From an uncultured Arenicella sp. (GTDB lineage Bacteria > Pseudomonadota > Gammaproteobacteria > Arenicellales > Arenicellaceae), in assembly GCA_937989675.1 (NCBI GenBank), contig CALKRK010000006.1, positions 1-35,041 of the forward strand: DNA of 35,041 bases, in the 5' to 3' direction. Positions 6,077 through 27,390 of this stretch are shown in pieces (position 1 is the first letter of the stretch; each line of letters opens with the position of its first letter). The translations under genes and the position numbers were made by a program. Under the pieces are notes generated by a model. It was not told the DNA's origin and made no database searches. It saw nothing but the letters and a program-made list of their open reading frames with translations.

Positions 6077-6694
6077 CTAGTCCGCCATACGTGAAGGAAA
6101 TCGCCGTTCGCTTACCAAATCTCTAACCTCGTCTACACTTAAATATCGTCCATCGGGCCCGTCTTTACCCATCACCCTTAAAAGGACAGGCCATTCGCCA
6201 TTCATCATGATTCTATTTATACGGCGCCTTTGCCCAACGGCGCGTTCGTAGTTAGCGTCCATAAAGGCTCTTATTTCTGTGGCGTCAAGGCCGAGCTCGG
6301 TAGAGCCGTCATGAGAATTTTTTTCGCTGGCAAACTGGCTTAGGCGTTCAAGTTCTTGCTCAGATACATTGCCGTTGTGATCTAACACGCCGGAGCCTGC
6401 GCCTTTTTTGTAGAGTGGCCCGTTGCGTAGCTTATTTAGCTTCACTCCTTTACGTATAGTTTTCAGTATGGAAAGTGGGCTAATTCCATTCGAAATTAGG
6501 GAAACAACGTAGATCGCTATGAACGATAGGCTTGGTTTGCCTTCTCCCTTTTTCGCCTGCTCCACAATGGCATCTGTAACCTTAGAGCATGTCTCTGAAT
6601 CATCACTAAGCGTACCTTGTTCAACAAGCCCGCGTAAAAAAGGGCAAGGGTTATCTGGCGACACCTTTAAGTTTCCTTTAGCACTGTTACCCAT
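6077..6694 (-). CDS. Cytoplasmic protein with a chloroperoxidase-like PCP motif and EF-hand-like loops
   Basis: The start is the ATG at 6694 because GGAGGAG sits just upstream (6698-6704); a longer reading to 6805 lacks a ribosome site. 205 residues, no signal peptide. Near the N-terminus NPCPFLRGLVEQGTL (about residues 15-29) looks like the Pro-Cys-Pro heme-thiolate motif and following helix of the Peroxidase_2 (chloroperoxidase/UPO) family. Further on, LDHNGNVSEQEL, NSHDGSTELG and KDGPDGRYLSVDEV read like degenerate EF-hand loops, of the kind seen as D-x-[DN]-G patterns. The middle is a hydrophobic helix (FIAIYVVSLISNG). I infer a peroxygenase-like or calcium-linked role but cannot confirm heme binding: the distal EHDxS-type motif of true peroxygenases is not evident. 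It stands alone between unrelated genes. Confidence 0.6.
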   Translation of the reverse strand: MGNSAKGNLKVSPDNPCPFLRGLVEQGTLSDDSETCSKVTDAIVEQAKKGEGKPSLSFIAIYVVSLISNGISPLSILKTIRKGVKLNKLRNGPLYKKGAGSGVLDHNGNVSEQELERLSQFASEKNSHDGSTELGLDATEIRAFMDANYERAVGQRRRINRIMMNGEWPVLLRVMGKDGPDGRYLSVDEVRDLVSERRFPSRMAD

Positions 6695-15616: not shown

Positions 15617-15641
15617 ACTAAGCGTTTTCTGAGCGCTTAGT
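15617..15641. terminator. Hairpin at the 3' end of the GPH symporter gene
   Basis: ACTAAGCG (15617-15624) and CGCTTAGT (15634-15641) pair perfectly around a 9-nt loop. The stem covers the symporter stop codon and lies between convergent genes. The T content after it is modest on either strand, so termination is plausible but not certain. Confidence 0.45.
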
Positions 15642-17012
15642 TCTCATTTGTCGGATTTCTATCGCCCGCACTAGTTTTGAATGTAATCTTTGATCTAGTG
15701 GGTAACGACGGATAATCATAAAGACCGCAAATAGACCAGCTGCAGGGAGCAACGTCATTAGCGCTTTCATTTGCGCCAAGGTCGATAACGATTGTTCAGA
15801 GTTAGCTACATAGCCAATTGTATCTAGAAAAATTCCTAGCAGCCCCATCGCGATGCCTAGTGAAACTTTTTGCGCAAACGTGATGAGCCCCAATAGAAAG
15901 GCCGGGGCTCTAATCCCAGTTTTCCATTCACCAAACTCAACGGTATCTGGAAGGGTTGCCCAAAAACTAAAGTACAGTGCCCCTTTGGCTAGGGCGCTAA
16001 CAAGTAGAAAAGGCAAGATAGCGTTGATATGGTCAACGGAGAAAAAGTAGAGGCATATCGAGTTTACGATAATAATGCACAGACCCGTTTGCCAAACAAA
16101 GCGCTTACTGGACCATTTAGCTAATAGTGACCAAATCGGAAAGCTGATTGCCGTTACGATTCCAAGTGCTGCTAAGGTGCTACCAATTGCACTTTTGCCG
16201 TTCAGAGCGTAGATGAGGTAATAGATAAGCACTTTATCGGCGAGCGCCACACAAGACATGCTGACTATAACGGCGAGAAAGACCAACCAAAAAGGAGAGT
16301 TGGCTTTCAACATAGCGACCGTGTCCTGTACCGACAGTTGTGACTGCTGAGGTGTCGCATAAGTTTCCGCTTTTTCACGTGTCATTAAAAATGTCAGAAA
16401 AAAAACAGGGACAGAAAGTGCCGCAAAAATTGCGGAAACTCTGAAGAAGCCGTCATTCAGATCACCGTTGCCAAGTGACTCAGCTAGTTTTAGCATTAAT
16501 AGTGCAACGATGATGCCTGCTGCTGAGGCAAACAGCATTCTAGATACCACGAGGCTTGAGCGTTCATTGGAGTTTCGGGTGATCTGGGCCATCATGGCGC
16601 CATAAGGCACCGCAACAATGGTATAGCATGTCCTAAAAATAACATGGGTGACCGCCGCGTAAATAATGAGGCCTCCTACTTCTAAATCAGGGCGATAAAA
16701 CATAAACGCGAAAGAACAAGCTAAAGGAATAGCCCCTAGCACTAGGTATGGGCGGTAGCGCCCCCATCGAGTGCGCGTCTTGTTTGTTAGCAAACCCACC
16801 AACGGATCACTAATACCATCCCAAATCATCGCAACCATAAAGATGGTGCCTGCCACTTTGTTCGGGAGGCCTAATACGTCGGTGTAGTAAAAAAGTAAGT
16901 AGAGATTGGTGGCTGTCCAAAAAAAACCGAAACCTAAGTCTCCTAATCCATAGCCTATTTTTTGAGATAACCCTAGCGGCTGGTTTTTATTTGAATATAT
17001 TGCTGTGCTCAT
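15618..17012 (-). CDS. GPH-family (MelB-like) glycoside:cation symporter
   Basis: 464 residues from the ATG at 17012; a start at 17054 would add 14 polar residues and lacks a ribosome site. Twelve hydrophobic segments. Family signatures are clear: KIGYGLGDLGFGFFW at the N-terminus, YYTDVLGL, then WDGISDPLVGLLTNKTRTRWGRYRPY read in two parts (about residues 65-90; the D in ISDP binds Na+/H+ in MelB), and the VPYGAMMAQIT block near 135. It should carry a glycoside or oligosaccharide into the cytoplasm with Na+ or H+. The divergent neighbour is a cytoplasmic GH3 glucosidase, so a beta-glucoside is the likely load. The 5' side holds several palindromes that may be operators. Confidence 0.88.
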   Translation of the reverse strand: MSTAIYSNKNQPLGLSQKIGYGLGDLGFGFFWTATNLYLLFYYTDVLGLPNKVAGTIFMVAMIWDGISDPLVGLLTNKTRTRWGRYRPYLVLGAIPLACSFAFMFYRPDLEVGGLIIYAAVTHVIFRTCYTIVAVPYGAMMAQITRNSNERSSLVVSRMLFASAAGIIVALLMLKLAESLGNGDLNDGFFRVSAIFAALSVPVFFLTFLMTREKAETYATPQQSQLSVQDTVAMLKANSPFWLVFLAVIVSMSCVALADKVLIYYLIYALNGKSAIGSTLAALGIVTAISFPIWSLLAKWSSKRFVWQTGLCIIIVNSICLYFFSVDHINAILPFLLVSALAKGALYFSFWATLPDTVEFGEWKTGIRAPAFLLGLITFAQKVSLGIAMGLLGIFLDTIGYVANSEQSLSTLAQMKALMTLLPAAGLFAVFMIIRRYPLDQRLHSKLVRAIEIRQMRTKRSENA

Positions 17013-17060
17013 TTTTCGTTCTCGGCCTTTGGTGGCGTCATAGTGCCTGCTCATATAAAA

Positions 17061-17131: not shown

Positions 17132-17153
17132 TGATTTTTCACGTAAAAAATCA
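17132..17153. promoter_or_regulatory. 22-bp palindrome, TGATTTTT-N6-AAAAATCA
   Basis: Eight-base perfect arms flank CACGTA, whose ACGT centre is itself symmetric, leaving one mismatched pair. It lies in the middle of the divergent symporter/glucosidase promoter region. Confidence 0.4.
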
Positions 17154-17163
17154 AATTTATAAT

Positions 17164-17192
17164 TTAACTATCCAATTGGTTGACTAAATAAT
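17164..17192 (+). promoter_or_regulatory. Candidate promoter with embedded operator for the GH3 gene (site S3)
   Basis: TTAACT (17164-17169), a 17-nt spacer and AATAAT (17187-17192) form a reasonable sigma70 promoter about 48 bp before the ATG. CTATCCAATTGGTTGA (17168-17183) fills the spacer and resembles the palindrome CTAACCATATGGTTAG found at the TonB receptor gene. Repressor binding here would block RNA polymerase directly. Confidence 0.5.
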
Positions 17193-17239
17193 GGTAGCAC
17201 AGTATCTTCCCTAAAACCAAAATTAAGCGGAATTGATCG

Positions 17240-19333
17240 ATGTCTTATCTAGACGCAAATAAGAGTAACTCTACAGAAATACAACCCGGCTTGGAAAAGC
17301 GTGTGTCTCAACTTCTTGAGCAGCTATCTTTAGAAGAAAAGGTTTATATGATGTCGGGCCACGACTTCTATCAACGCTTTCTTAATGAAGATAAACGCCA
17401 ATTTAATGTGCGCCTGTATCAGGCCGGGGCCGGCAATGATCGCCTTGAGGTGCCATATTTGTGGTTTGCCGATGGGCCTAGAGGGGTCGCGCTAAAAGGT
17501 TCCACCTGTTTCCCGGTATCCATGGCAAGGGGGGCGAGCTGGGATGTCAATCTGGAACAGCGCATCGGAGAAGCAATGGGCCGTGAATTACGCGCTCGTG
17601 GCGGCAACATATTAGCAAATGTCTGTATTAACCTTTTGCGCCATCCTGCTTGGGGGCGTGCGCAAGAGTCTTATGGTGAAGATCCGTACCTACTTGGAGA
17701 GTTGGGTGCCGCGCTAACTCGTGGCACGCAGCATCATAATGTGATTGCTACGGTAAAACACTTTGCTGCAAACAGCATCGAAAATGCACGATTTAAGGTC
17801 GATGTTGTTATGAGTGAACGCGTGCTTAGAGAAGTATATCTCCCCCATTTTAAGCGCGTGATCGATGAAGGTGTTGGCTCCGTAATGAGCGCTTATAACA
17901 AAGTGAACGGCAACTACTGCGCGCATAATAAGGTTCTGCTTCGAGACATATTGAAGGGTGAATGGGGCTTTAAGGGGTTTGTGCATTCCGATTGGATTCT
18001 CGGTGTCTATGGGGCCGATGCCGCCGCAGCTGGCTTGGACATTGAGAACCCCGAGGGTACGCATTTTGGCGCCAAGTTGGTCAGGGCCGTCGAGAACGGA
18101 GAAGTACCTGTCGACGCGATTAACGATGCGGTTACTCGAATATTGACGACCTTAATTTACTTTACCGAGCGTGAGAACCCACAGAGTTATTTCGAGAATC
18201 TTATCGCCTGTGAGGATCATGTAGCGCTTGCGCAGGAAGCGTCAGAGAAAAGTATTGTCCTGTTAAAAAATGACGACAGAGTATTACCCTTGGATAAGCG
18301 TGATATTAAGCGCCTAGCGGTCATTGGGGATTTAGCGAGTATTGAAAACACCGGCGACAATGGCTCTAGTGCTGTTGAACCGCCGTTTTCCGTGACCCCG
18401 CTAGAAGGATTAAAAAAGCATCTAGGCAGTGATGCGGAAATCATCTTCGACGATGGTAGTGATCTTGATAGAGTCGCCGCGGTTGCTAAAGAGGCTTGCG
18501 CGGTGATTGTGTTCGCTGGATACACAGCGGAAGACGAGGGTGAGTTCATACCTGGGGAAGTATCATCAAATGAAGGCAGCGAGCCGGTGATAGAGTCAAA
18601 GGGCGGTGATAGAACATCGCTGAACTTAAGGTCAGAACATGAGTCGATGATAATGAGAGCTGCTCAGGCCAATAGTAAAACGATTCCGGTGATCATCGCG
18701 GGTAGTGCTGTCATTATGGAAAATTGGCGGCATCAGGTAAGCGCAATTTTGATGTCTTGGTACTCCGGTATGATGGGGGGTAGTGCGGTAGCAAGGGTGC
18801 TCTTTGGCGACGTAAACCCAAGCGGAAAACTGCCTTTCACAATACCGCAGCAGCCAGAACAATTACCTTTTTTCGATAAAGATGCGGACGAAATTGAGTA
18901 CGGTTTATATCACGGCTACACAAAGTTTGATAAAGAGTCTTTAACTCCTGCATTCCCCTTTGGCTTTGGTCTTTCTTACACGAACTACGAGTATTCAAAC
19001 CTCAATGTGGCCCTAGATGGCAACACGATCCACAGCGCGGTTAGGCTACAAAATGTTGGCGCTCGATCAGGTGAAGAGGTTGTTCAGTTATACGTAGGCT
19101 TTGAAAACACCACCATTGATAGAGCAAAAAAGTTATTGCGTGGATTCCAAAAAATCCTTCTAAAGCCTGGAGAAGCAGCAACAGTTAAATTTGAGTTTAC
19201 CGTGGACGAGTTAGCTTGGTTTTGTGAAGAAACGCGCTCATGGGAAGTAGAGAACATCGTCTACAACGTATACGTAGGAGGGTCATCAGATGAAACTCAA
19301 CTGCAAAAATCCACATTCTCGCTGGGCGACTAG
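17240..19333 (+). CDS. Glycoside hydrolase family 3 beta-glucosidase (cytoplasmic)
   Basis: 697 residues without a signal peptide, so intracellular. The N-terminal GH3 TIM-barrel shows DGPRG near residues 78-82, R140 with the ESYGEDPYL block (143-151), VKHFAANSIE (172-181; substrate-binding Lys-His), MSAYNKVNG (216-224), and the catalytic nucleophile D251 in GFVHSDW. The (alpha/beta)6 sandwich follows (SIVLLKNDDRVLPL... VIVFAGYTAEDEGE, then GGDRTSLNL). The C-terminal fibronectin-III-like domain (FPFGFGLSYTNYEYS..., EEVVQLYVG) ends the protein; the order is that of T. neapolitana Bgl3B-type enzymes. It would cleave a terminal beta-D-glucosyl (or related) residue from imported glycoside. The acid/base Glu is probably in the EGEF/EGSEP region but I cannot fix it. 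Divergent from the GPH symporter. Confidence 0.92.
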   Translation: MSYLDANKSNSTEIQPGLEKRVSQLLEQLSLEEKVYMMSGHDFYQRFLNEDKRQFNVRLYQAGAGNDRLEVPYLWFADGPRGVALKGSTCFPVSMARGASWDVNLEQRIGEAMGRELRARGGNILANVCINLLRHPAWGRAQESYGEDPYLLGELGAALTRGTQHHNVIATVKHFAANSIENARFKVDVVMSERVLREVYLPHFKRVIDEGVGSVMSAYNKVNGNYCAHNKVLLRDILKGEWGFKGFVHSDWILGVYGADAAAAGLDIENPEGTHFGAKLVRAVENGEVPVDAINDAVTRILTTLIYFTERENPQSYFENLIACEDHVALAQEASEKSIVLLKNDDRVLPLDKRDIKRLAVIGDLASIENTGDNGSSAVEPPFSVTPLEGLKKHLGSDAEIIFDDGSDLDRVAAVAKEACAVIVFAGYTAEDEGEFIPGEVSSNEGSEPVIESKGGDRTSLNLRSEHESMIMRAAQANSKTIPVIIAGSAVIMENWRHQVSAILMSWYSGMMGGSAVARVLFGDVNPSGKLPFTIPQQPEQLPFFDKDADEIEYGLYHGYTKFDKESLTPAFPFGFGLSYTNYEYSNLNVALDGNTIHSAVRLQNVGARSGEEVVQLYVGFENTTIDRAKKLLRGFQKILLKPGEAATVKFEFTVDELAWFCEETRSWEVENIVYNVYVGGSSDETQLQKSTFSLGD

Positions 19334-19353
19334 CTGAGTAAATAAGCTTAGAC

Positions 19354-19387
19354 GCATCGCGGCCTGAAAACCGCGATGCATAATTTT
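19354..19387 (+). terminator. Rho-independent terminator after the GH3 gene
   Basis: GCATCGCGG (19354-19362) and CCGCGATGC (19371-19379) form a perfect 9-bp GC-rich stem with an 8-nt loop, followed by ATAATTTT. It lies between the convergent GH3 and small beta-rich genes and may serve both. Confidence 0.75.
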
Positions 19388-19406
19388 AAAGACCTGAGGT
19401 TGTTAA

Positions 19407-19703
19407 CTACTGAGATAGGCGTGCGCTAAATTCACCCGAGCTGAATGCACCAAATTGAACCGTGCCCTGCATTTCTCCGGCCGCTTCAAGACCTTCGAAG
19501 TTTAGAGTCATCCGTATCGGTTGATCTACTTCGATGGACCAACTGTATTTATTGTTGGTCAATTGGCCGTTCATGATGTCGGTTGTTCCAGCCTCGCCAT
19601 TAAGCGTGCCAGAAAACGATTCGCCATTGACGTCTATTTCTAGAGTAGAAAGTTGTTCTCCGATTGGAGATTGGATGGTTAGTTGCCAAGTTTGTTTTTG
19701 CAT
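19407..19703 (-). CDS. Small beta-rich cytoplasmic protein of unknown function, 98 aa
   Basis: The start is the ATG at 19703, set by GAGGAA just upstream; a longer reading to 19793 would run through the palindromic operator and has no ribosome site. The sequence alternates short strands and glycine turns (WQLTIQSPIGEQ, FSGTLNGEAGT, WSIEVDQPIRMTLNFEG, GTVQFGAFSSGEFSARL), about eight strands in the manner of a small closed barrel such as a lipocalin-like fold. I recall small proteins of this pattern annotated only as hypothetical. No signal peptide. It is divergent from the acyl-CoA ligase across a strong palindrome, so the two are probably co-regulated, and a role in binding the lipophilic substrate is a reasonable guess only. 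Confidence 0.65.
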   Translation of the reverse strand: MQKQTWQLTIQSPIGEQLSTLEIDVNGESFSGTLNGEAGTTDIMNGQLTNNKYSWSIEVDQPIRMTLNFEGLEAAGEMQGTVQFGAFSSGEFSARLSQ

Positions 19704-19756
19704 GTTGTTCCTCGTGAAAACTTTAAGATTCAAATTAATACCAAACGGTGTCTTAA

Positions 19757-19785
19757 TTATATTGGCATGAATCGTGCCAATATAA
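19757..19785. promoter_or_regulatory. 29-bp palindrome, candidate operator between small protein and acyl-CoA ligase
   Basis: TTATATTGGCA (19757-19767) and TGCCAATATAA (19775-19785) are exact reverse complements. The seven bases between them add two more pairs with one mismatch, so 13 of 14 pairs match around A19771. It lies about 90 bp from the ligase start and 54 bp from the small-protein start, ideal for shared control of both genes. It differs from the CTAACCATATGGTTAG type, so a second regulator may bind here. Confidence 0.65.
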
Positions 19786-19874
19786 AAGAGCACTTTTTGA
19801 TTGCCGCCTGAAAGTTGGTCTTGGATCAGTTTTTAGGTGTGTGAGATTTAAAAACTAAACATGGTAAACATGCG

Positions 19875-21668
19875 ATGAAGCTATTCGAAAAAATTAAGAG
19901 TGACCTCACTTACCTAAGTACGTATTCAAAGTTGAACTCGGCACTTAAAACACTTGATGCCGATGCGTATTGCAATATCACCACAGACTTTGAAAAAGCG
20001 GTTGATAAGTACCCGATGCGGCTCGCAGTAGAAGATGAGACGCGCTGTTATAGCTACTGGCAGTTCGAACAGAGAGCTAACAAGTTTGCTGCATGGGCTT
20101 TGTGGGTAGGTCTTAATGAGGGTGATACTGTCGCTCTATTTATGGAGAACCGAGTTGACTATATTGCGTTTTGGTATGGTATGGCCAAGGTTGGTGTAAA
20201 GACGGCGCTTATCAACAATAATTTGTCGGGAGAGAGCTTAGCTCATTGCATTAAGTGCGTTTCCGCACGAGCGTTGATAGCGAGCGCGACGACGGTTCGT
20301 AAAGCGAACAGCATTACAGACTTGCTTGATCAAGAGATGCCAATTTGGACTTTAAGTGAATCTGGTATAGCTGAAAACGATCTCGAGTCTGCACTGGAGG
20401 GCTTGTTTCCGCTGCGGCCTTTTCAGTATCGTCGAAAAAATATTAAGGGTGGAGACACTGCGCTTTATATTTTTACTTCAGGAACAACAGGGCTGCCGAA
20501 AGCCGTGAAAATGACGCATGTTCGATGCATACAAATGATGCGGGCATTCGTCTACCCATGCCGCCTTACTGAGAAAGATCGAGTGTTTTTGACTCTGCCG
20601 ATGTATCACGGAACGGGGGGCGTTTGTGGGGCAGGAAGTGCTTTGATATCTGGTGCGGCGTTAGTGATTCGGAATAAGTTTTCGGCTAAGAGGTTCTGGC
20701 AAGACGCTACGAGATCCGAAGTCACTGCGTTTGTGTATGTTGGGGAATTGAATCGGTACTTGATGAACAATGAGCCTTGCGCTTTTGAAAAAAAGCATCA
20801 GATAGGCAAAATATTTGGCAACGGAATGCGTGCTGATGTTTGGGAGACCTTTATTACGAGAACGGGTATTAAAAACATATACGAATTTTATGGTTCCTCC
20901 GAAGGCAATGTTTCGCTATTCAATATGGATGCAAAAATTGGTGCAATCGGTCGAATCCCACCATTTTTAAAGTCAAAAATTCCATATCGTTTGATAAAGG
21001 TAGATATGGATACACTCATACCGCTTAGAGATAACAACGGGCTTTGTATCGAGGCATTGCCGGGTGAGGTAGGCGAAATTGTTGGGCGTATTGAACGCAA
21101 CAATGTAAGCAGTCATTTTGAAGGCTATCAGAGCGCGGATGAAACCTCAGCTAAAGTATTGCGCGATGTTTTTGAAGTTGGTGATCGATACTTCAGAAGT
21201 GGAGATGCGCTAAAGCAGGATGAGCGAGGGTATTTTTATTTTGTAGATCGTCTTGGTGATACGTTTCGTTGGAAATCGGAAAACATTTCATCGGCCGAAG
21301 TGGAGGAAGCTATCTGTCGAGTAGCGGGCATTGATACTGCGATTGTTTATGGTGTGGAAATTCCAGGGAATGATGGCCGAGCGGGTATGGCCACAATAAC
21401 GGTTTCCGAAATTGATTTAGCCGAATTCTATAAAAGTATTGCTAAGAGTCTGCCAAGTTATGCGCGGCCGGTATTTTTGAGAATTAGGCGACAACAAGAG
21501 TCGACAGGAACAATGAAATTCAAAAAAAATACTCTTAAAAAACAGGGCTATCAATTGTCACAAGTTAACGGCGATGGTTTATTCGTAATTTCAGTAGAAG
21601 ACAAAACTTATGTTGAATTAAACCCTGAGATAGTTGAGAGAATTAATGCCGGAGCAATGCGATTCTAA
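19875..21668 (+). CDS. FATP/very-long-chain-type acyl-CoA synthetase
   Basis: 597 residues, length typical of the FATP/SLC27-FadD6 branch of ANL enzymes. The P-loop YIFTSGTTGLPKAVKMTH is near residues 196-213. The GELNRYLMNN block near 291-300 parallels the GELCRYL motif that marks fatty-acid transport proteins and bile-acid/very-long-chain ligases. FYGSSEGN near 337-344 is motif A5-like, and RSGDALKQDERGYFYFVDRLGDTFRWKSEN (about 441-470, read in parts) carries the conserved YFxDRxGDTFRWKGEN motif. TGTMKFKK near the C-terminus gives the catalytic Lys region. It forms the CoA thioester of a long-chain, branched or polycyclic acid using ATP. Neighbours (glucosidase, TonB receptor, TetR) suggest the acid comes from an imported conjugate. 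Substrate unknown. Confidence 0.88.
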   Translation: MKLFEKIKSDLTYLSTYSKLNSALKTLDADAYCNITTDFEKAVDKYPMRLAVEDETRCYSYWQFEQRANKFAAWALWVGLNEGDTVALFMENRVDYIAFWYGMAKVGVKTALINNNLSGESLAHCIKCVSARALIASATTVRKANSITDLLDQEMPIWTLSESGIAENDLESALEGLFPLRPFQYRRKNIKGGDTALYIFTSGTTGLPKAVKMTHVRCIQMMRAFVYPCRLTEKDRVFLTLPMYHGTGGVCGAGSALISGAALVIRNKFSAKRFWQDATRSEVTAFVYVGELNRYLMNNEPCAFEKKHQIGKIFGNGMRADVWETFITRTGIKNIYEFYGSSEGNVSLFNMDAKIGAIGRIPPFLKSKIPYRLIKVDMDTLIPLRDNNGLCIEALPGEVGEIVGRIERNNVSSHFEGYQSADETSAKVLRDVFEVGDRYFRSGDALKQDERGYFYFVDRLGDTFRWKSENISSAEVEEAICRVAGIDTAIVYGVEIPGNDGRAGMATITVSEIDLAEFYKSIAKSLPSYARPVFLRIRRQQESTGTMKFKKNTLKKQGYQLSQVNGDGLFVISVEDKTYVELNPEIVERINAGAMRF

Positions 21669-21710
21669 AGCACATGTTGGCCATGCTGGGTTGCAATGTC
21701 TATAAGCCCA

Positions 21711-22310
21711 TCAGGTTTGAAGAAGTTTCTGAACTGCGAAGTGCAAAACTTCCTCAGATTTTTCGACGGACATATTTTGGTTTACTCTGAGGTGATGCCA
21801 GTGTTGCAAACTCAGCACGGCTTGCAGTGCGCTCACTAATACCGCATCCGTTGGCGAAGTCGATTTGAGCGCACTTTGAAAGCACATTCGCTCCTTAGCT
21901 AAATATTTTTGATAGTTTGTTACTAGGAAATCGAATTTGAATCGCTTCATAGTCGATATTGATTCTAGACCCAGCATCTTTTCGTGAACTTGCACACGCT
22001 TCGGAATACTTTCTAACAGGCTTTGGGGGCATTTAGATATCGAAGGTTGGTTTTTTAGTAACTCCAAAACCAAGGTATTGGTCTGCTTGGCTAAATCAAG
22101 GTATTGCTTGTCAATTTCTCTGAAATGGCGGAAAACTGTTCGCAGGCCTACGTTTGCAGCTTCCGCGATTTCAGCCGCGCTTGGAGTAACGTGGCCTTTC
22201 TGAGCGAGTGTTTGTACAGCGGCAATAATCTTATTGCGGCTGCGAACGCTTCGCTGTCTCCGACCGTCGTCGGCGTTTATATCTGGTGTTCTTATCAATT
22301 CTAAGCTCAA
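21711..22310 (-). CDS. TetR-family transcriptional regulator (TetR-1)
   Basis: 199 residues. The N-terminal helix-turn-helix runs from about residue 24 to 72: RNKIIAAVQTLAQKGHVTPS, then AAEIAEAANVGLRTVFRHF and the continuing helix IDKQYLDLAKQ. The recognition helix is VGLRTVFRHF. The C-terminal ligand domain is helical and not assignable. The only start codons at the N-terminus are TTG at 22310 or TTG at 22298; a stop lies upstream and no ATG precedes the HTH, so translation is probably weak. Divergent from the TonB receptor gene, with two CTAACCATATGGTTAG-type sites between them, so it is the prime candidate for binding them and controlling the receptor and itself. Confidence 0.88.
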   Translation of the reverse strand: MSLELIRTPDINADDGRRQRSVRSRNKIIAAVQTLAQKGHVTPSAAEIAEAANVGLRTVFRHFREIDKQYLDLAKQTNTLVLELLKNQPSISKCPQSLLESIPKRVQVHEKMLGLESISTMKRFKFDFLVTNYQKYLAKERMCFQSALKSTSPTDAVLVSALQAVLSLQHWHHLRVNQNMSVEKSEEVLHFAVQKLLQT

Positions 22311-22353
22311 TTGGGGGCTTTCGGGGAGGCGAGCGTGCGGTGTTAAGCGAATT

Positions 22354-22369
22354 CCAAACTATATTTTGG
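22354..22369. promoter_or_regulatory. Short inverted repeat CCAAA-N6-TTTGG upstream of TetR-1
   Basis: CCAAACTATATTTTGG lies about 45 bp upstream of the TTG start of TetR-1 and could overlap its promoter. The arms are only five bases, so this may be chance. Confidence 0.3.
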
Positions 22370-22431
22370 ACTCAGGTTTCTATTGCTACTCGTAATTATA
22401 GCGAATCTTTTATTATCTGCTGTTGATTTAA

Positions 22432-22447
22432 TTAACCATATGGATAA
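22432..22447. promoter_or_regulatory. Operator-like site S1 upstream of the TonB receptor
   Basis: TTAACCATATGGATAA, a nearly perfect palindrome. It sits after TTGATT (22423-22428), which could be a -35 element with a weak -10 at 22445-22450. Its centre is 31 bp, about three helical turns, from the centre of site S2. Confidence 0.6.
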
Positions 22448-22462
22448 CAATGTGTTTATTAG

Positions 22463-22478
22463 CTAACCATATGGTTAG
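22463..22478. promoter_or_regulatory. Operator-like site S2, perfect 16-bp palindrome
   Basis: CTAACCATATGGTTAG is perfectly self-complementary and about 90 bp upstream of the receptor ATG. Together with S1 it forms a phased pair between TetR-1 and the receptor gene, the standard layout for a divergent TetR operator. Confidence 0.7.
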
Positions 22479-22568
22479 TGCTGGTGTGCTTAACGACCAT
22501 GCCAAAGATGCGGGTGGCGGGTTGTACGCTCGCCCTTATAATAAAAACAGATAGTGAGGAGGGTGAAA

Positions 22569-24923
22569 ATGCCCAAAAAAGTAGAAGTTGAGTTGTTCAA
22601 ACATACGCTTGTTGCGGCGGCTATTGCGAGTAGCAGCGCAGCGTACTCTGAAGAAAATGGTCATGAAGTTAGTGAACCGCAAGTAGAAGTATTAGAGTCA
22701 ATTATCGTTATTGCACAAAGGCGAGAGGAACGAGTTCAAGATGTACCGTTTTCTGTCTCGGTGGTGTCTGGCGAAAACATCGATGACGCAAAAATAATTA
22801 CAGTTGAAGACCTTGCCAGATCGACGCCATCGCTTAACTTTGGTAAGGCGGGCAGTAGCCGTGGTGAGGGCTTACAGATACGAGGCATTGGCACAGCAAG
22901 TTTTGATGATGGCATAGAAGGCGCGGTCGGTACGGTGATTGATGGCGTTGTAATTGGTCGTCAGGGAGCGGGTTTAAATGATCTGTACGATGTTGAGAGA
23001 ATTGAGGTGCTGCGTGGCCCACAAGGGACACTATTCGGCAAAAATACATCGGCCGGGCTAATTAACATCGTCACAAAAAGGCCTACAAAAGAGTTTGAAG
23101 CCGACTTTGGTTTGAGTTATGGCACGTTCAATGAAGTGCGTCTTAATGGTGTGGTTTCTGGCCCCGTCGCAGGCGAAAAACTGACGGGTCGGTTGTCCAC
23201 GTTTAAAAACACGCGCGACGGAACCATCGATCAGATAAATGAGCAAGTATCTGAAACCGAAGTTGATAATAAAGATGAGTGGGGTTTTAGAGGTAAGCTT
23301 CTTTATGAAGCTTCTGAAAACTTAAGCTTCTATCTAAATAGTGAATTTGTAAAAGAAGATCAGGTCTGCTGTGTTCGCACTGAACGTTCTTTTCCGAGTG
23401 ATCCGGTATTTAGTTTTCTAGGCTTAGATCGGGGAATTACACCTGGGCCAAGCAATCGCCAAAATAATGCCAGTTCGATCACTTCTCAGGAATCTGAAAC
23501 GAAGGCTCTCTCGCTCGAAATTGAAAATCAATTTAGCAATGGTGCTGTTTTTAAATCGATTTCAGCTGCTCGAAATTTCGAAACATTTGAGTTTACAGAC
23601 ACGGATAACGGACCTTCTCAACTGGTTGAATTTGCAGGAACGGATACTGATATTACTCAGTTCAGTCAAGAGTTCCAGTTAGTGTCGGGTGAAGACTCTA
23701 ATTTGAGTTATGTATTAGGCGCCCTCTATTTCGATCAAGAAGTCGATTCTTTGACGTCGTTTACCGGTGTGTTTACCGAAACTTCGGATACCAGTATTGA
23801 ACTTACTACGTTTCAGCCGATTGGCGCTGGGGTTCAGGGCTTTACTTTGAGTCCGGTTTCTACTGATCAGCCGCAAATTTCTAAAACCACGAACACAGCC
23901 ATATTTGGGCAGTTGGTATATCCGTTCTCAGAGCGTTGGGCGATCACAGCAGGCGCTAGAGTTTTGCATGAAAAGCTAGAGATAGATTTTAGCCGTGCGG
24001 CAAGCTCAGCGGTTGGTCAGTTGGTAGATGGCCGGATAGCAACTGACTTAGTGTTGCCTGCGGGCATTGGACAGAACTTGAGTTTGGCGGCGACCGAGAG
24101 CGATACTGCGGTGACCGGTATGCTTAGCCTGCAGTATTTTCTGAACGACGAAACAACATCCTATCTAACCCTAAGCAGAGGTTATAAAGGGCAGGGGCTT
24201 TCATTTAGTCCTGAGGGAGTTGGGGTATTGAAGCCCGAGGTTCCAACCAACCTAGAACTTGGTATTAAAAGTCATATGCTTGACAACAGGCTATATCTTG
24301 CAGCTACAGGCTTCATAACCGATTACCGTGATTTTCAATCTTTGGTTTCTAGCGTAACTGGTTTCGAAACCACTAATATTGATAATGTACGCTCACAGGG
24401 TGTTGAGCTTGAATTCATAGCCAAAGCAAGTGGGCGCTTAAGCCTTTCAGGTGGTATCGCATGGGTGAATGCGGAGATTGAGAGTTTTGATAAACTGGTT
24501 AGTTGCTTTCCTGGGCAAACTTTGGAACAAGGTTGCTTAGCTGGTCAGACTGGCCAAAGCATTGAAGGCAACAGCATGCCGAATTCACCTGAGTTGATGG
24601 CTAATCTAAAGCTTGATTACCTTTTCTATGAATCCAGCTCGACATCAGCCAAGTTTAGTGTCGACTACGCATGGAAAGATGAGCGAAATTTTTCATTAAA
24701 CGGTAATCCCCGCACAGTCCAAGAAGCTTACGGTCTGTTGAACGCTTCATTAGGAATTGAGATGTCAAACGGCTTGGCCATGTCTCTATGGACGAAGAAT
24801 CTGCTTGATGAAGATTACGCGTTAATGATCAACGAGAATTTTCTGTTTCCTAACTCAGGCGGTTATCAACAATATCTTGGTTTAGAAAGACAAGTTGGTT
24901 TCGATATTAAATACCGGTTTTAA
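22569..24923 (+). CDS. TonB-dependent outer-membrane receptor
   Basis: 784 residues. The ATG at 22569 is preceded by AGGAGG (22557-22562); an upstream GTG overlaps that ribosome site and is discounted. A signal peptide ending near AAYS is followed by a TonB-box-like ESIIVIAQRRE segment and the plug domain (RVQDVPFSVSVVSGENI, IRGIGTASFDDGIEGAVGTV, DVERIEVLRGPQGTLFGKNT, GLINIVTKRP). The rest is the 22-strand barrel ending in the usual terminal Phe (DIKYRF). It imports a large or scarce substrate across the outer membrane with TonB-ExbBD energy. The class (RREERVQDVP, GxxGLNDLYDVERIEVLRGPQ) is the one common for non-siderophore substrates in Sphingomonads and marine gammaproteobacteria. Substrate likely linked to the ligase and glucosidase next door. 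Confidence 0.92.
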   Translation: MPKKVEVELFKHTLVAAAIASSSAAYSEENGHEVSEPQVEVLESIIVIAQRREERVQDVPFSVSVVSGENIDDAKIITVEDLARSTPSLNFGKAGSSRGEGLQIRGIGTASFDDGIEGAVGTVIDGVVIGRQGAGLNDLYDVERIEVLRGPQGTLFGKNTSAGLINIVTKRPTKEFEADFGLSYGTFNEVRLNGVVSGPVAGEKLTGRLSTFKNTRDGTIDQINEQVSETEVDNKDEWGFRGKLLYEASENLSFYLNSEFVKEDQVCCVRTERSFPSDPVFSFLGLDRGITPGPSNRQNNASSITSQESETKALSLEIENQFSNGAVFKSISAARNFETFEFTDTDNGPSQLVEFAGTDTDITQFSQEFQLVSGEDSNLSYVLGALYFDQEVDSLTSFTGVFTETSDTSIELTTFQPIGAGVQGFTLSPVSTDQPQISKTTNTAIFGQLVYPFSERWAITAGARVLHEKLEIDFSRAASSAVGQLVDGRIATDLVLPAGIGQNLSLAATESDTAVTGMLSLQYFLNDETTSYLTLSRGYKGQGLSFSPEGVGVLKPEVPTNLELGIKSHMLDNRLYLAATGFITDYRDFQSLVSSVTGFETTNIDNVRSQGVELEFIAKASGRLSLSGGIAWVNAEIESFDKLVSCFPGQTLEQGCLAGQTGQSIEGNSMPNSPELMANLKLDYLFYESSSTSAKFSVDYAWKDERNFSLNGNPRTVQEAYGLLNASLGIEMSNGLAMSLWTKNLLDEDYALMINENFLFPNSGGYQQYLGLERQVGFDIKYRF

Positions 24924-24951
24924 AAATCCATAATCTCCTTGGTAATCTTTT

Positions 24952-24988
24952 GGCGTGTTTTGGCTGTTGGCTAAAACACGCCTTTTTT
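24952..24988 (+). terminator. Strong rho-independent terminator after the TonB receptor
   Basis: GGCGTGTTTT (24952-24961) pairs perfectly with AAAACACGCC (24973-24982) around an 11-nt loop, followed by six T (24983-24988). On the opposite strand the stem also follows the TetR-2 stop, with AAAA/TTTT making it usable in both directions. Confidence 0.9.
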
Positions 24989-25649
24989 ATGCCGTAACGT
25001 GATGTTTGAAGAAAAGTTCAATGATGGCATCGGCATAGTCATTGACAACTGTAGATGACTTTACGTTAGTTCCATGGGTTCGTTTTACTTCCGGTGCCAA
25101 CATGAAAATAGTTTGGCTTACCGATACGGTAATATAAAGTAGATAAACCGGGTTAATACTTTGCGGCCATACACCTTCTTTTTGAGCTTGTGCAATTCCA
25201 TCAATCCACGTTTTATGACGGTCTTTTATAAAACAGTCTACTGCCCATTTAAGCCGGTCATTGTCGCGGACAGAAGCTTGAACCATAATTTGAGCATGCT
25301 CTGGGTGCTTTGCGCAGTATTGAACGTATTTACGAATAAACAGTTCAGAGGCTTGAAGAGTTGATAGGTCGGTTAGTTCATCGTCCGCTATCAAAATTTC
25401 CTCAGCGGCTCTTTCAAATAGATAGCTGACCGCTTCTTTCCATAGATTTTCTTTATTCACAAAGTGATATTTGACCATCGCATGATTAACGCCAGCTTCA
25501 GCCGCTATGTCTCTTATTACCGCTCCGTCAAAACCGCGTTCAGCGAACAAACTTAATGCGGATTGTAGAATGGACTTGCGGGTGAGTTCTTTTTGCTGAT
25601 CACGAATGCCGACCTTTTTGTCGGTGTGATTGTTATTTTTTAAGGTCAT
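24987..25649 (-). CDS. TetR-family transcriptional regulator (TetR-2)
   Basis: 220 residues. HTH at about residues 22-70: RKSILQSALSLFAERGFDGA, then VIRDIAAEAGVNHAMVKYHF with the recognition helix NHAMVKYHF and the ENLWKEAVSYLF helix. The rest is an all-helical ligand domain in the CerR/TetR_C style (HAQIMVQASVRDND, PVYLLYITVSVSQTIFMLAPE). It would repress genes until a small hydrophobic ligand binds. The gene converges on the TonB receptor and shares its terminator. Upstream (about 70 bp) there is a symmetric ATTGAC-N15-GTCAAT element that could be its own operator, and the secreted hydrolase gene lies next upstream on the same strand. Confidence 0.9.
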   Translation of the reverse strand: MTLKNNNHTDKKVGIRDQQKELTRKSILQSALSLFAERGFDGAVIRDIAAEAGVNHAMVKYHFVNKENLWKEAVSYLFERAAEEILIADDELTDLSTLQASELFIRKYVQYCAKHPEHAQIMVQASVRDNDRLKWAVDCFIKDRHKTWIDGIAQAQKEGVWPQSINPVYLLYITVSVSQTIFMLAPEVKRTHGTNVKSSTVVNDYADAIIELFFKHHVTA

Positions 25650-25719
25650 AGAATTTATGGGGAGAGGTGCCCCTAAGGTTTAGTCTTAATGGCTTAACGG
25701 TTGCCCAGATTGGCTATCT

Positions 25720-25746
25720 ATTGACGCCCAATATACGCTGGTCAAT
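25720..25746. promoter_or_regulatory. Inverted repeat ATTGAC-N15-GTCAAT upstream of TetR-2
   Basis: Six-base perfect arms 27 bp overall, about 70-100 bp before the TetR-2 start. The interior contains TATACGCTGGT, which resembles TATACGATTGGTT at site S4. Read on the minus strand, TTGACC with a 17-nt spacer to AATAGA is a possible promoter inside it. Confidence 0.35.
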
Positions 25747-25795
25747 CGGTGTAGGCAATCGATTATCTAAGGTAATGAAAGTAATCCGATAACGG

Positions 25796-25822
25796 AAGGA
25801 AGGCGCACGAACTTCCTTTTTT
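25796..25822 (+). terminator. Orphan terminator-like hairpin on the plus strand
   Basis: AAGGAAG (25796-25802) and CTTCCTT (25812-25818) pair around a 9-nt loop and run into six T (25817-25822). No plus-strand gene ends here; both flanking genes are on the minus strand. It may end an antisense or small RNA starting in the TetR-2 promoter region. Confidence 0.45.
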
Positions 25823-25889
25823 GTACGCCTTCGGCGGTTGCCTAAAAAGGTATGAAAATTGATTCTAAACTTCTGTGTTTAGATGAGCA

Positions 25890-26903
25890 TTAAGGCAGTG
25901 TTTGATAGATCGATTCTAATGTTTGGTCGCTAATAATTTCCATTGGGTTAACTGGCGTACCATCGCTCCATGCTCCCATATTTGTATCAAGCACACTGCT
26001 ACTAAAAATGTGTGTGTCTGCACTTGAGTTATTGAAAGCGAAATCAACCAAAGCATCACTAGTTCGCCAGTAACCGTACCAATCGATAGCGTCGGTGTAC
26101 TGTTCCGGATCCCAAAAGTTCCCTTTTTTGCTCTGCACACTTGTGTGAGTAGATTGAAGGTTTGGATTTCCATGGTTATCACTTTTGATAGACATGAGAC
26201 CGCGATTTTTCAACTGTGGGCTGGAATGCCAAATGGTGACTGGTACAGGATACGCTCCGGTATCTTGGTCCCAATCGTCACGCACTAATATAAGCATCGC
26301 TGTGCTGGGAGGAATGTTTCCAAGATTGTTATTCAGCATGAAATCATTACGCATTTGGTCTGAACCAGCAGGCTCGTGTAAAACAAGTCCTTTCGGTGCA
26401 GGGTAGCTAAAATCGGCGGCGGTATCTGCCATCTTAACGGCAATTTGTGAACCTAAGGAGTGGCCCATAATAATTGTCTTGTCTAAGTTGGGCGCAACAT
26501 GCCCGCCGGCCTGCAGTTTGGCTAGCGCGTTTTGGTAAGCTTGTTTAGAGTTGGCTTCATAGGTATGTATATTGAGCCAAGACCCGATTTTCGGAAAAAT
26601 AACAACATGCCCGTTGCGGGCATAATGGATGAGAAGATCTTCATACAAACTCGGTCTGTCTGCTGACCAGCCGTGTAAATATAGAATTACTGGGGCTGAC
26701 GTTGGCTCCGGTGCGGCTGGCTCGTAAATCCAGTATTTTAGATCGCCAGAACCATAGCTTGTTTTTTTGTAGGAGCCGTGCACGTAATTGTTCGAGCCTG
26801 GTCCTGAAGTGGGTTGTGCTGGCGGCGATGCTGCCTGGGTTGAAGCGTATGCCAGCATTAGCGTGGTCGCTATAAAGCGCCTGAGTAAAGCTCGTAAAGT
26901 CAT
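25890..26903 (-). CDS. Secreted alpha/beta hydrolase (esterase/lipase type)
   Basis: 337 residues. A signal peptide (LRRFIATTLMLAYASTQAA) is followed by a Pro/Ser/Gly-rich linker. Oxyanion-hole motif ILYLHGWSADR (H77-G78), nucleophile elbow GHSLGS with S149. The charge relay is probably D in VRDDWDQD and H in KSDNHGNP, as in lipases/PETase-like dienelactone-hydrolase fold enzymes. It acts in the periplasm or outside the cell on an ester; substrate not readable. The C-terminal part (YTDAIDWYGYWRTSDALVD) is typical of a lid-less family in marine bacteria. It lies between TetR-2 and a region with a candidate operator S4 about 130 bp upstream, so it may belong to the same regulon as the receptor and the GH3 enzyme. 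The start ATG at 26903 has a weak ribosome site. Confidence 0.85.
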   Translation of the reverse strand: MTLRALLRRFIATTLMLAYASTQAASPPAQPTSGPGSNNYVHGSYKKTSYGSGDLKYWIYEPAAPEPTSAPVILYLHGWSADRPSLYEDLLIHYARNGHVVIFPKIGSWLNIHTYEANSKQAYQNALAKLQAGGHVAPNLDKTIIMGHSLGSQIAVKMADTAADFSYPAPKGLVLHEPAGSDQMRNDFMLNNNLGNIPPSTAMLILVRDDWDQDTGAYPVPVTIWHSSPQLKNRGLMSIKSDNHGNPNLQSTHTSVQSKKGNFWDPEQYTDAIDWYGYWRTSDALVDFAFNNSSADTHIFSSSVLDTNMGAWSDGTPVNPMEIISDQTLESIYQTLP

Positions 26904-27003
26904 AATCTGAATGTCCGAAAGGTTGAAATATGAAGTAAGAGAGTCAACTGTTTATGCGTTTGGACCTCTCTAATCTGCTCTGGCTAAGCCAAAGAACACC
27001 GAT

Positions 27004-27043
27004 CCAACCGTATATTCAATTTTGAATTTGACTATACGATTGG
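27004..27043. promoter_or_regulatory. Long imperfect palindrome covering site S4
   Basis: CCAACCGTATA (27004-27014) and TATACGATTGG (27033-27043) are inverted repeats with one mismatch. Between them ATTCAA-TT-TTGAAT adds an inner symmetry. The whole element therefore has nested dyad symmetry. On the minus strand TATAGT (27031-27036) could be a -10 for the secreted hydrolase gene. Confidence 0.5.
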
Positions 27044-27055
27044 TTAGTGTAATAT
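27028..27055 (+). promoter_or_regulatory. Strong sigma70-like promoter with operator S4 in its spacer
   Basis: TTGACT (27028-27033), a 16-nt spacer, TAATAT (27050-27055). CTATACGATTGGTTAG (27032-27047) lies across the spacer and resembles S3 (TTT[AG]ACTAT[AC]C[AG]ATTGGTT is shared). It points rightwards into a stretch with no annotated plus-strand gene, so it should make a short RNA. Confidence 0.6.
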
Positions 27056-27143
27056 TTATTGTTAACCGTTTGTGTAACGAAATCAAGCCTTTTAAGTTGG
27101 AAGTTTGAGCCTTGCAAGCCAATGGTTTGTGGATGCAAAAGAA

Positions 27144-27174
27144 AAGCCCCGTGATGACAATCATCACAGGGCTT
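27144..27174 (-). terminator. Strong minus-strand terminator hairpin
   Basis: AAGCCC with GGGCTT and GTGATG with CATCAC form a 12-bp stem with one C/A mismatch and loop ACAAT. On the minus strand the stem runs into TTTTCTTTTGC. It would end a transcript coming from the 23-codon ORF at 27268-27339. Confidence 0.75.
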
Positions 27175-27267: not shown

Positions 27268-27339
27268 TTAGTGATCAGCTACTTCGTTAAAAGCAACCAA
27301 ACCAAGAAGAGCAATAGTTAGGATGATCATAATTTCCAT
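27268..27339 (-). CDS. Candidate 23-aa hydrophobic single-TM peptide
   Basis: ATG at 27339 with AGGTG (27345-27349) five bases upstream, stop TAA at 27268-27270. The product begins MEIMIILTIALLGLVAFN and ends EVADH: one membrane-spanning stretch of about 16 residues with an acidic start and end. Size and composition resemble small inner-membrane peptides of Ibs/Ldr/TisB type or small subunits such as KdpF/CydX, though it lacks the positive residues of most type I toxins. The transcript would carry a perfect hairpin in the leader (27391-27407), then the ORF, then about 95 nt up to the terminator at 27144-27174. A competing 33-codon plus-strand reading (27220-27321) overlaps it. Codons are of the kind used in well-expressed genes. 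Confidence 0.45.
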   Translation of the reverse strand: MEIMIILTIALLGLVAFNEVADH

Positions 27340-27390
27340 AATAGCACCTGTAAAAATCAGTATTTAAAGTTCAAAAATTGTTTCGTGTTG

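Follow-up and report, generated by a model that had tools for sequence, protein, structure and literature searches.

In the 35,041-nucleotide stretch of an uncultured Arenicella sp. analysed here (contig CALKRK010000006.1, hereafter the window), a gene island with a TonB-dependent receptor and a GH3 glycoside hydrolase contains four variants of one 16-bp palindrome, S1 to S4. These sites, perhaps with a fifth, S5, are predicted with good confidence to be operators of a single TetR-family repressor, TetR-2, through which the island would be induced jointly. The island is read here as a local repressor regulon for the uptake and cleavage of a substrate that is presumably a glycoside, possibly a sulfated one in relatives. 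A TetR-2 dimer would bind palindromes of the TTATCCAnnTGGATAA type in the promoters of the GH3/GPH symporter pair, the TonB receptor and an alpha/beta hydrolase, and once bound would block RNA polymerase. Its release would come from a ligand that the imported substrate gives rise to, and would switch on receptor, glycosidase, symporter and hydrolase together. TetR-2 binding, repression and release by an inducer are all proposed, repression and inducer by analogy with the family.

A first-pass annotation had placed sites at 17168, 22432, 22463 and 27032, and all four were found there. S1 (22432..22447, TTAACCATATGGATAA) and S2 (22463..22478, CTAACCATATGGTTAG) lie 31 bp apart in the intergenic region between the genes of TetR-1, a second TetR-family protein, and the TonB receptor. 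S3 (17168..17183, CTATCCAATTGGTTGA) lies in the gap that separates the GPH symporter gene from the divergently oriented GH3 gene, and S4 (27032..27047, CTATACGATTGGTTAG) 129 bp upstream of the minus-strand alpha/beta-hydrolase gene, which is followed by the TetR-2 gene on the same strand. These gene contexts agree with the annotated ones. No strand is assigned to any of the sites. All four are located in non-coding DNA, which makes up 15% of the window. As had been claimed, S2 is a perfect palindrome, the only one of 16 bp in the window; S1 is symmetric at 7 of 8 positions, S3 and S4 at 5 of 8 each.

Judged on the window alone, the case for S1 to S4 is thin. A degenerate pattern allowing up to two mismatches gives 10 matches in the window against 6 expected. 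In the 3.58-Mb genome, 17 matches to CTAACCATATGGTTAG were counted when up to three mismatches were allowed, compared with 27 for a reversed control. Another degenerate pattern, derived from the four sites, has exact matches at those four places alone, which is circular. The strongest non-island site among the matches listed (C285:505) is in coding DNA. Genome-wide frequency of the palindrome was rejected as support because of these chance-level counts. The genome-wide scan suggested by the first-pass annotation thus ended at chance for the plain palindrome, but the motif does recur in related clusters. A chance-level frequency is no valid refutation either, since the regulon would be confined to one island.

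GH3 relatives from plasmids were aligned and used for a scan of 84,980 species genomes, yielding 80 GH3 loci, whose open reading frames (ORFs) were searched with the window proteins. A cluster of GPH symporter, TonB receptor, GH3 and a TetR-2-type regulator recurs in alpha- and gammaproteobacteria, with Pseudohaliea rubra (L099), Alkalicaulis satelles (L131), Parasphingopyxis and an Erythrobacter among the hosts. A plasmid of Sphingobium sp. TomTYG46 also carries a TetR-2-type gene with operator sites. A sulfatase (Pfam PF00884) is found in 10 of 11 related clusters and is missing from the window; some clusters add a formylglycine-generating enzyme or a GDSL esterase.

Palindrome-constrained expectation-maximisation was run on intergenic sequence from the 11 clusters that bear a TetR-2-type gene, the window being excluded. 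It returned the motif aTTATCCAnnTGGATAAt de novo, and the consensus TTATCCAnnTGGATAA was the best motif at widths of 16, 18 and 20. When the window was scored with this matrix, S1 (19.9 bits), S3 (17.7 bits), S2 (16.7 bits) and S4 (15.1 bits) took ranks 1 to 4 of about 35,000 positions at widths 16 and 18, the scores being those at width 16; at width 20, S3 drops to rank 5. The best match to TTATCCAnnTGGATAA is S1, rather than the perfect palindrome S2. Per 35 kb, 0.13 matches of at least 15.1 bits (the S4 score) are expected and 0.017 at the S3 score, and a Poisson estimate for at least four such matches is about 1e-5. Among 60 simulated windows, none had a fourth-best site above 11.3 bits, and none had a site as good as S1. 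Because a matrix built from other genomes ranks S1, S3, S2 and S4 first to fourth, the four sites very probably represent a genuine operator family, conserved beside orthologous genes in two proteobacterial classes. The first-pass view of them as variants of one operator is thereby upheld.

Matches of at least 15 bits number 35 in 0.22 Mb of TetR-2-type GH3 loci and 8 in 1.08 Mb of the others, with a matrix trained on the TetR-2-type loci; for that reason the held-out tests are the fair comparison. In leave-group-out runs the motif was regained and most held-out top matches were intergenic, the exceptions being locus L062, which has variant sites, and the first run with the gammaproteobacteria held out. 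That run settled on a GC-rich optimum, and with a per-locus background the motif was regained. The resulting matrix, based on alphaproteobacteria only, recovered the gammaproteobacterial sites and again gave S1, S3, S2 and S4, in that order, the four highest scores in the window. Three of the 8 matches outside the TetR-2-type loci (L088, L112 and L114) lie just upstream of GH3, and no TetR-2-type gene was seen there. GPH, GH3 or TonB genes of relatives likewise have motif sites ahead of them.

The regulator of these sites is most likely TetR-2 (24987-25649, minus strand). Its TetR_N domain (PF00440, 1.8e-12) scores 47.3 bits against a cut-off of 24, its recognition helix reads VNHAMVKYHF, and it shares 35-52% identity with the regulators of the 11 motif-bearing clusters. 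An AlphaFold model with a predicted local distance difference test (pLDDT) score of 90.8 and a predicted TM-score (pTM) of 0.84 shows an all-helical two-domain TetR fold, with 287 PDB matches at E <= 0.001 and TetR-type regulators among the matches listed. By comparison across clusters, the palindromic operator is conserved beside TetR-2-type genes and the genes clustered with them. In L092, L107 and L129, sites lie between the GPH and TetR-2-type genes. L052 and L172 have sites immediately ahead of the TetR-2-type gene, and L160 has them at the 5' end of that gene. No GH3 neighbour was detected in L160, L052 and L172, whose helices are VTHAVIRLHF, VTHAVIRLHF and LAHGLIRHYF, respectively. TetR-2 is favoured because the motif goes with relatives of this protein even where GH3 is lacking, and because those clusters contain no TetR-1-type gene. 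The helix may track the operator as well. No adjoining sites were found for TetR-2 homologs with helices of the HP..IT kind, such as VHHPLITYHF or VTHPMITYHF, or for other, more distant homologs. In L062, the helix TTHSMIRYHF goes with variant operators (TCGTCCAAATGGACTA and similar) before the TonB, GPH and TetR genes; helix and operators are both changed, and the locus appears to be a natural specificity switch. The L062 variants, of the form TCGTCCA..TGGACTA, were located at 6365, 7981, 8057 and 13909.

Several points weigh against assigning the sites to TetR-2. The gene adjacent to S1/S2 is TetR-1, not TetR-2, and in the matrix scan of the window no good site turned up immediately upstream of the TetR-2 gene itself, which S4 could reach through read-through from the hydrolase gene. 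A close TetR-2 homolog beside GH3 in L161 has no site (helix VTHPMITYHF), and few cases stand behind the pairing of operator and helix. The four gammaproteobacterial clusters are mutually related, so that their sites are not fully independent. Finally, the organism's own genome, in an assembly about 80% complete, showed no surplus of regulon sites beyond the island.

Among the other explanations, a role for both TetR proteins is unlikely but fares best. TetR-2 would be the ancestral regulator and TetR-1 a later recruit to S1/S2 answering a second signal, e.g., an acyl-CoA made by the neighbouring acyl-CoA synthetase; both genes are in the island, and the window, which encodes this synthetase, has no copy of the sulfatase usual in relatives. 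TetR-1 (21711..22310, minus strand) is a diverged family member whose TetR_N match (0.00016) is under the curated cut-off. It is improbable that TetR-1 alone represses, with S1/S2 as its autoregulatory sites in a classical divergent arrangement and S3 and S4 reached in trans. S1/S2 do lie between its gene and the divergent gene of the TonB receptor, but 11 clusters with a TetR-2-type regulator carry this motif too, and none of the 80 GH3 loci has a TetR-1 match at E 1e-4. Relatives of TetR-1 in the genus, with only 20-28% identity, sit in unrelated loci with no such site nearby, the best reaching 11.6 bits. TetR-1 was rejected as leading regulator as it does not co-occur with the operator in related clusters. 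The earlier suggestion that one TetR protein coordinates the island is probably right, but TetR-1 is the one beside S1/S2 and the evidence points to TetR-2. That only S1/S2 are operators, S3 and S4 being look-alikes thrown up by a 35-kb search, is very improbable: both are only 5/8 palindromic and the earlier motif is at chance genome-wide, but a matrix made without the window ranks them second and fourth, S3 stands before the kinds of gene that bear sites in relatives, and S4 before another island gene.

According to the first-pass annotation, S3 and S4 lie within the spacers of sigma70 promoters. Matches of 9/12 do exist on the plus strand around S3 (17164..17192, TTAACT-17-AATAAT) and around S4 (27028..27055, TTGACT-16-TAATAT, pointing away from the hydrolase), but such matches occur at chance frequency (26 in the scanned region against 22.2 +/- 4.4 in shuffles) and this is not the usual layout in relatives. 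An alternative plus-strand promoter at 17136..17163 (TTTTCA-16-TATAAT, 10/12) is the joint best in the scanned 13.5 kb. As it ends at 17163, S3 would cover the transcription start; S3 can equally be placed inside a promoter spacer or on the start of this better promoter. In relatives, a TTGACA-like -35 element mostly starts about 25 bp before the site, so that the site overlaps the -10 element, or 20 bp after the site start. Site pairs 44-47 bp apart bracket the -35 element before several TonB genes. This layout fits a steric repressor. Placement in the spacer was rejected as a conserved feature, being uncommon in relatives. The 31-bp distance between S1 and S2 was confirmed, but the reading of it as three helical turns does not extend to relatives, where most within-promoter spacings fall at 44-50 bp and values of 15, 19 and 27 bp occur as well; helical phasing of paired sites was rejected because the spacings vary.

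The candidate fifth site, S5 (19656..19671, TTCTCCGATTGGAGAT), scores 14.8 bits (rank 5). It falls within a small ORF, towards the 5' end, and precedes the acyl-CoA synthetase gene by about 204 bp. Because it is in coding DNA, its role as an operator is uncertain. S5-like sites of the TTCTCCAAGTGGAGAA type precede TonB genes in L092, L107 and L129. TATAC half-sites, as in S4, also occur in L099 (CTATACAAATGGATAA) and L172 (TTATACGAATGTATAA). A weak possible partner of S4, S6 (27062..27077, TTAACCGTTTGTGTAA), lies 30 bp from it; its score of 9.5-12.5 bits is at chance level taken singly. On its left side S4 also lies within a 19-nt inverted repeat at 27004-27043 (84% complementary, 2 nt apart), and a second palindromic element may therefore overlap it. 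A strong terminator-like hairpin of 14 pairs is present at 27144-27174, and a short transcript from the plus-strand S4 promoter would meet it. No Rfam match was found in the window. Elsewhere, on contig C42 of genome G000, TTAACTATTTGGTTGA occurs twice in opposite orientation at 17455 and 17496, 41 bp apart. The pair scores low with the island motif and is possibly the paired site of another regulator.

The TonB-dependent receptor, the predicted target of S1/S2, is encoded at 22554..24923 on the plus strand (PF00593 1.3e-38, PF07715 8.1e-19). The predicted targets of S3 are the GH3 gene (17240..19333, plus strand; PF01915 4.7e-52, PF00933 1.1e-44) and the gene of the GPH-family sugar:cation symporter (15618..17054, minus strand; TIGR00792, 342 bits against a cut-off of 231). 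The predicted S4 target is a chlorophyllase-like alpha/beta hydrolase (25890..26903, minus strand; PF07224 2.2e-9). A long-chain acyl-CoA synthetase of the PRK08279 type is encoded at 19875..21668 on the plus strand (NF006134, 685 bits against a cut-off of 625). Between the acyltransferase and hydrolase genes, a possible small hydrophobic protein of 23 residues (MEIMIILTIALLGLVAFNEVADH) was noticed at about 27271-27342 on the minus strand.

No close orthologs of the GH3, TonB receptor and hydrolase were found in 145 related genomes, which makes the island a lineage-specific addition that was probably acquired horizontally. At strict thresholds, TetR-1, TonB receptor, GH3 and hydrolase had no close orthologs in the genus and order, and an initial search of the genome contigs with the TonB receptor gave no match. 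The island GH3 has relatives of 48-55% identity in many Lokiarchaeota metagenome bins (L053-L132), an odd distribution that suggests wide horizontal transfer. At a broader level, the chances seem about even that an undescribed TetR regulon for the import and breakdown of often sulfated glycosides, marked by a V[NT]H[AG] recognition helix together with the TTATCCAnnTGGATAA operator, has moved between lineages of aquatic and other proteobacteria as a unit, in the present case with the sulfatase missing, the acyl-CoA synthetase and hydrolase present and a second TetR protein added.

RutR of E. coli, a TetR-family pyrimidine regulator, recognises a palindromic site of about 16 bp in front of the genes it controls (PMC10891134). 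It is the closest PDB fold to TetR-2 (4x1e, TM-score 0.78-0.85). The two proteins share about 20% identity, and TetR-2 was rejected as a RutR with 41.4 bits against 230 and 40.8 bits against 368, the model cut-offs. The RutR consensus, TTGACCAnnTGGTCAA, has the CCAnnTGG core in common with the island operator, which differs in its flanking half-site, TTAT instead of TTGA. There are no rut genes beside TetR-2; its neighbours are the TonB receptor and the alpha/beta hydrolase. In TetR repressors such as KstR2, one protein controls several promoters of a single catabolic island via a palindrome. KstR2 turns up among the matches of TetR-2 by sequence and by fold but is set apart by its other genes and weak sequence similarity. 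Carbohydrate utilisation loci with TonB receptors are a known type in Xanthomonas and aquatic bacteria (PMC1790865). These loci resemble the island in grouping a TonB-dependent receptor with a glycosidase and an inner-membrane transporter, whereas the island stands apart by its TetR-2-type regulator and TATCCAnnTGGATA operator, and its relatives by their sulfatase. In Sphingobium sp. RC1, GH3 enzymes deglycosylate saponins such as alpha-tomatine (PMC10653915). A look-up in that paper for text on a regulator, TonB receptor or transporter yielded one incidental mention, and regulation seems to be undescribed there. A narrow literature search by island gene names found no account of the regulon, which is apparently undescribed, though an ordinary kind of gene switch.

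What began as a guess from raw sequence now stands as a regulon open to testing, its operator, regulator and genes defined in two bacterial classes. The helix-operator pairs would form a small natural data set for the DNA specificity of TetR proteins. For clusters of TonB receptors, GH3 enzymes and sulfatases, the operator may serve as a handle on the genes that are regulated together, and hence on the substrate.

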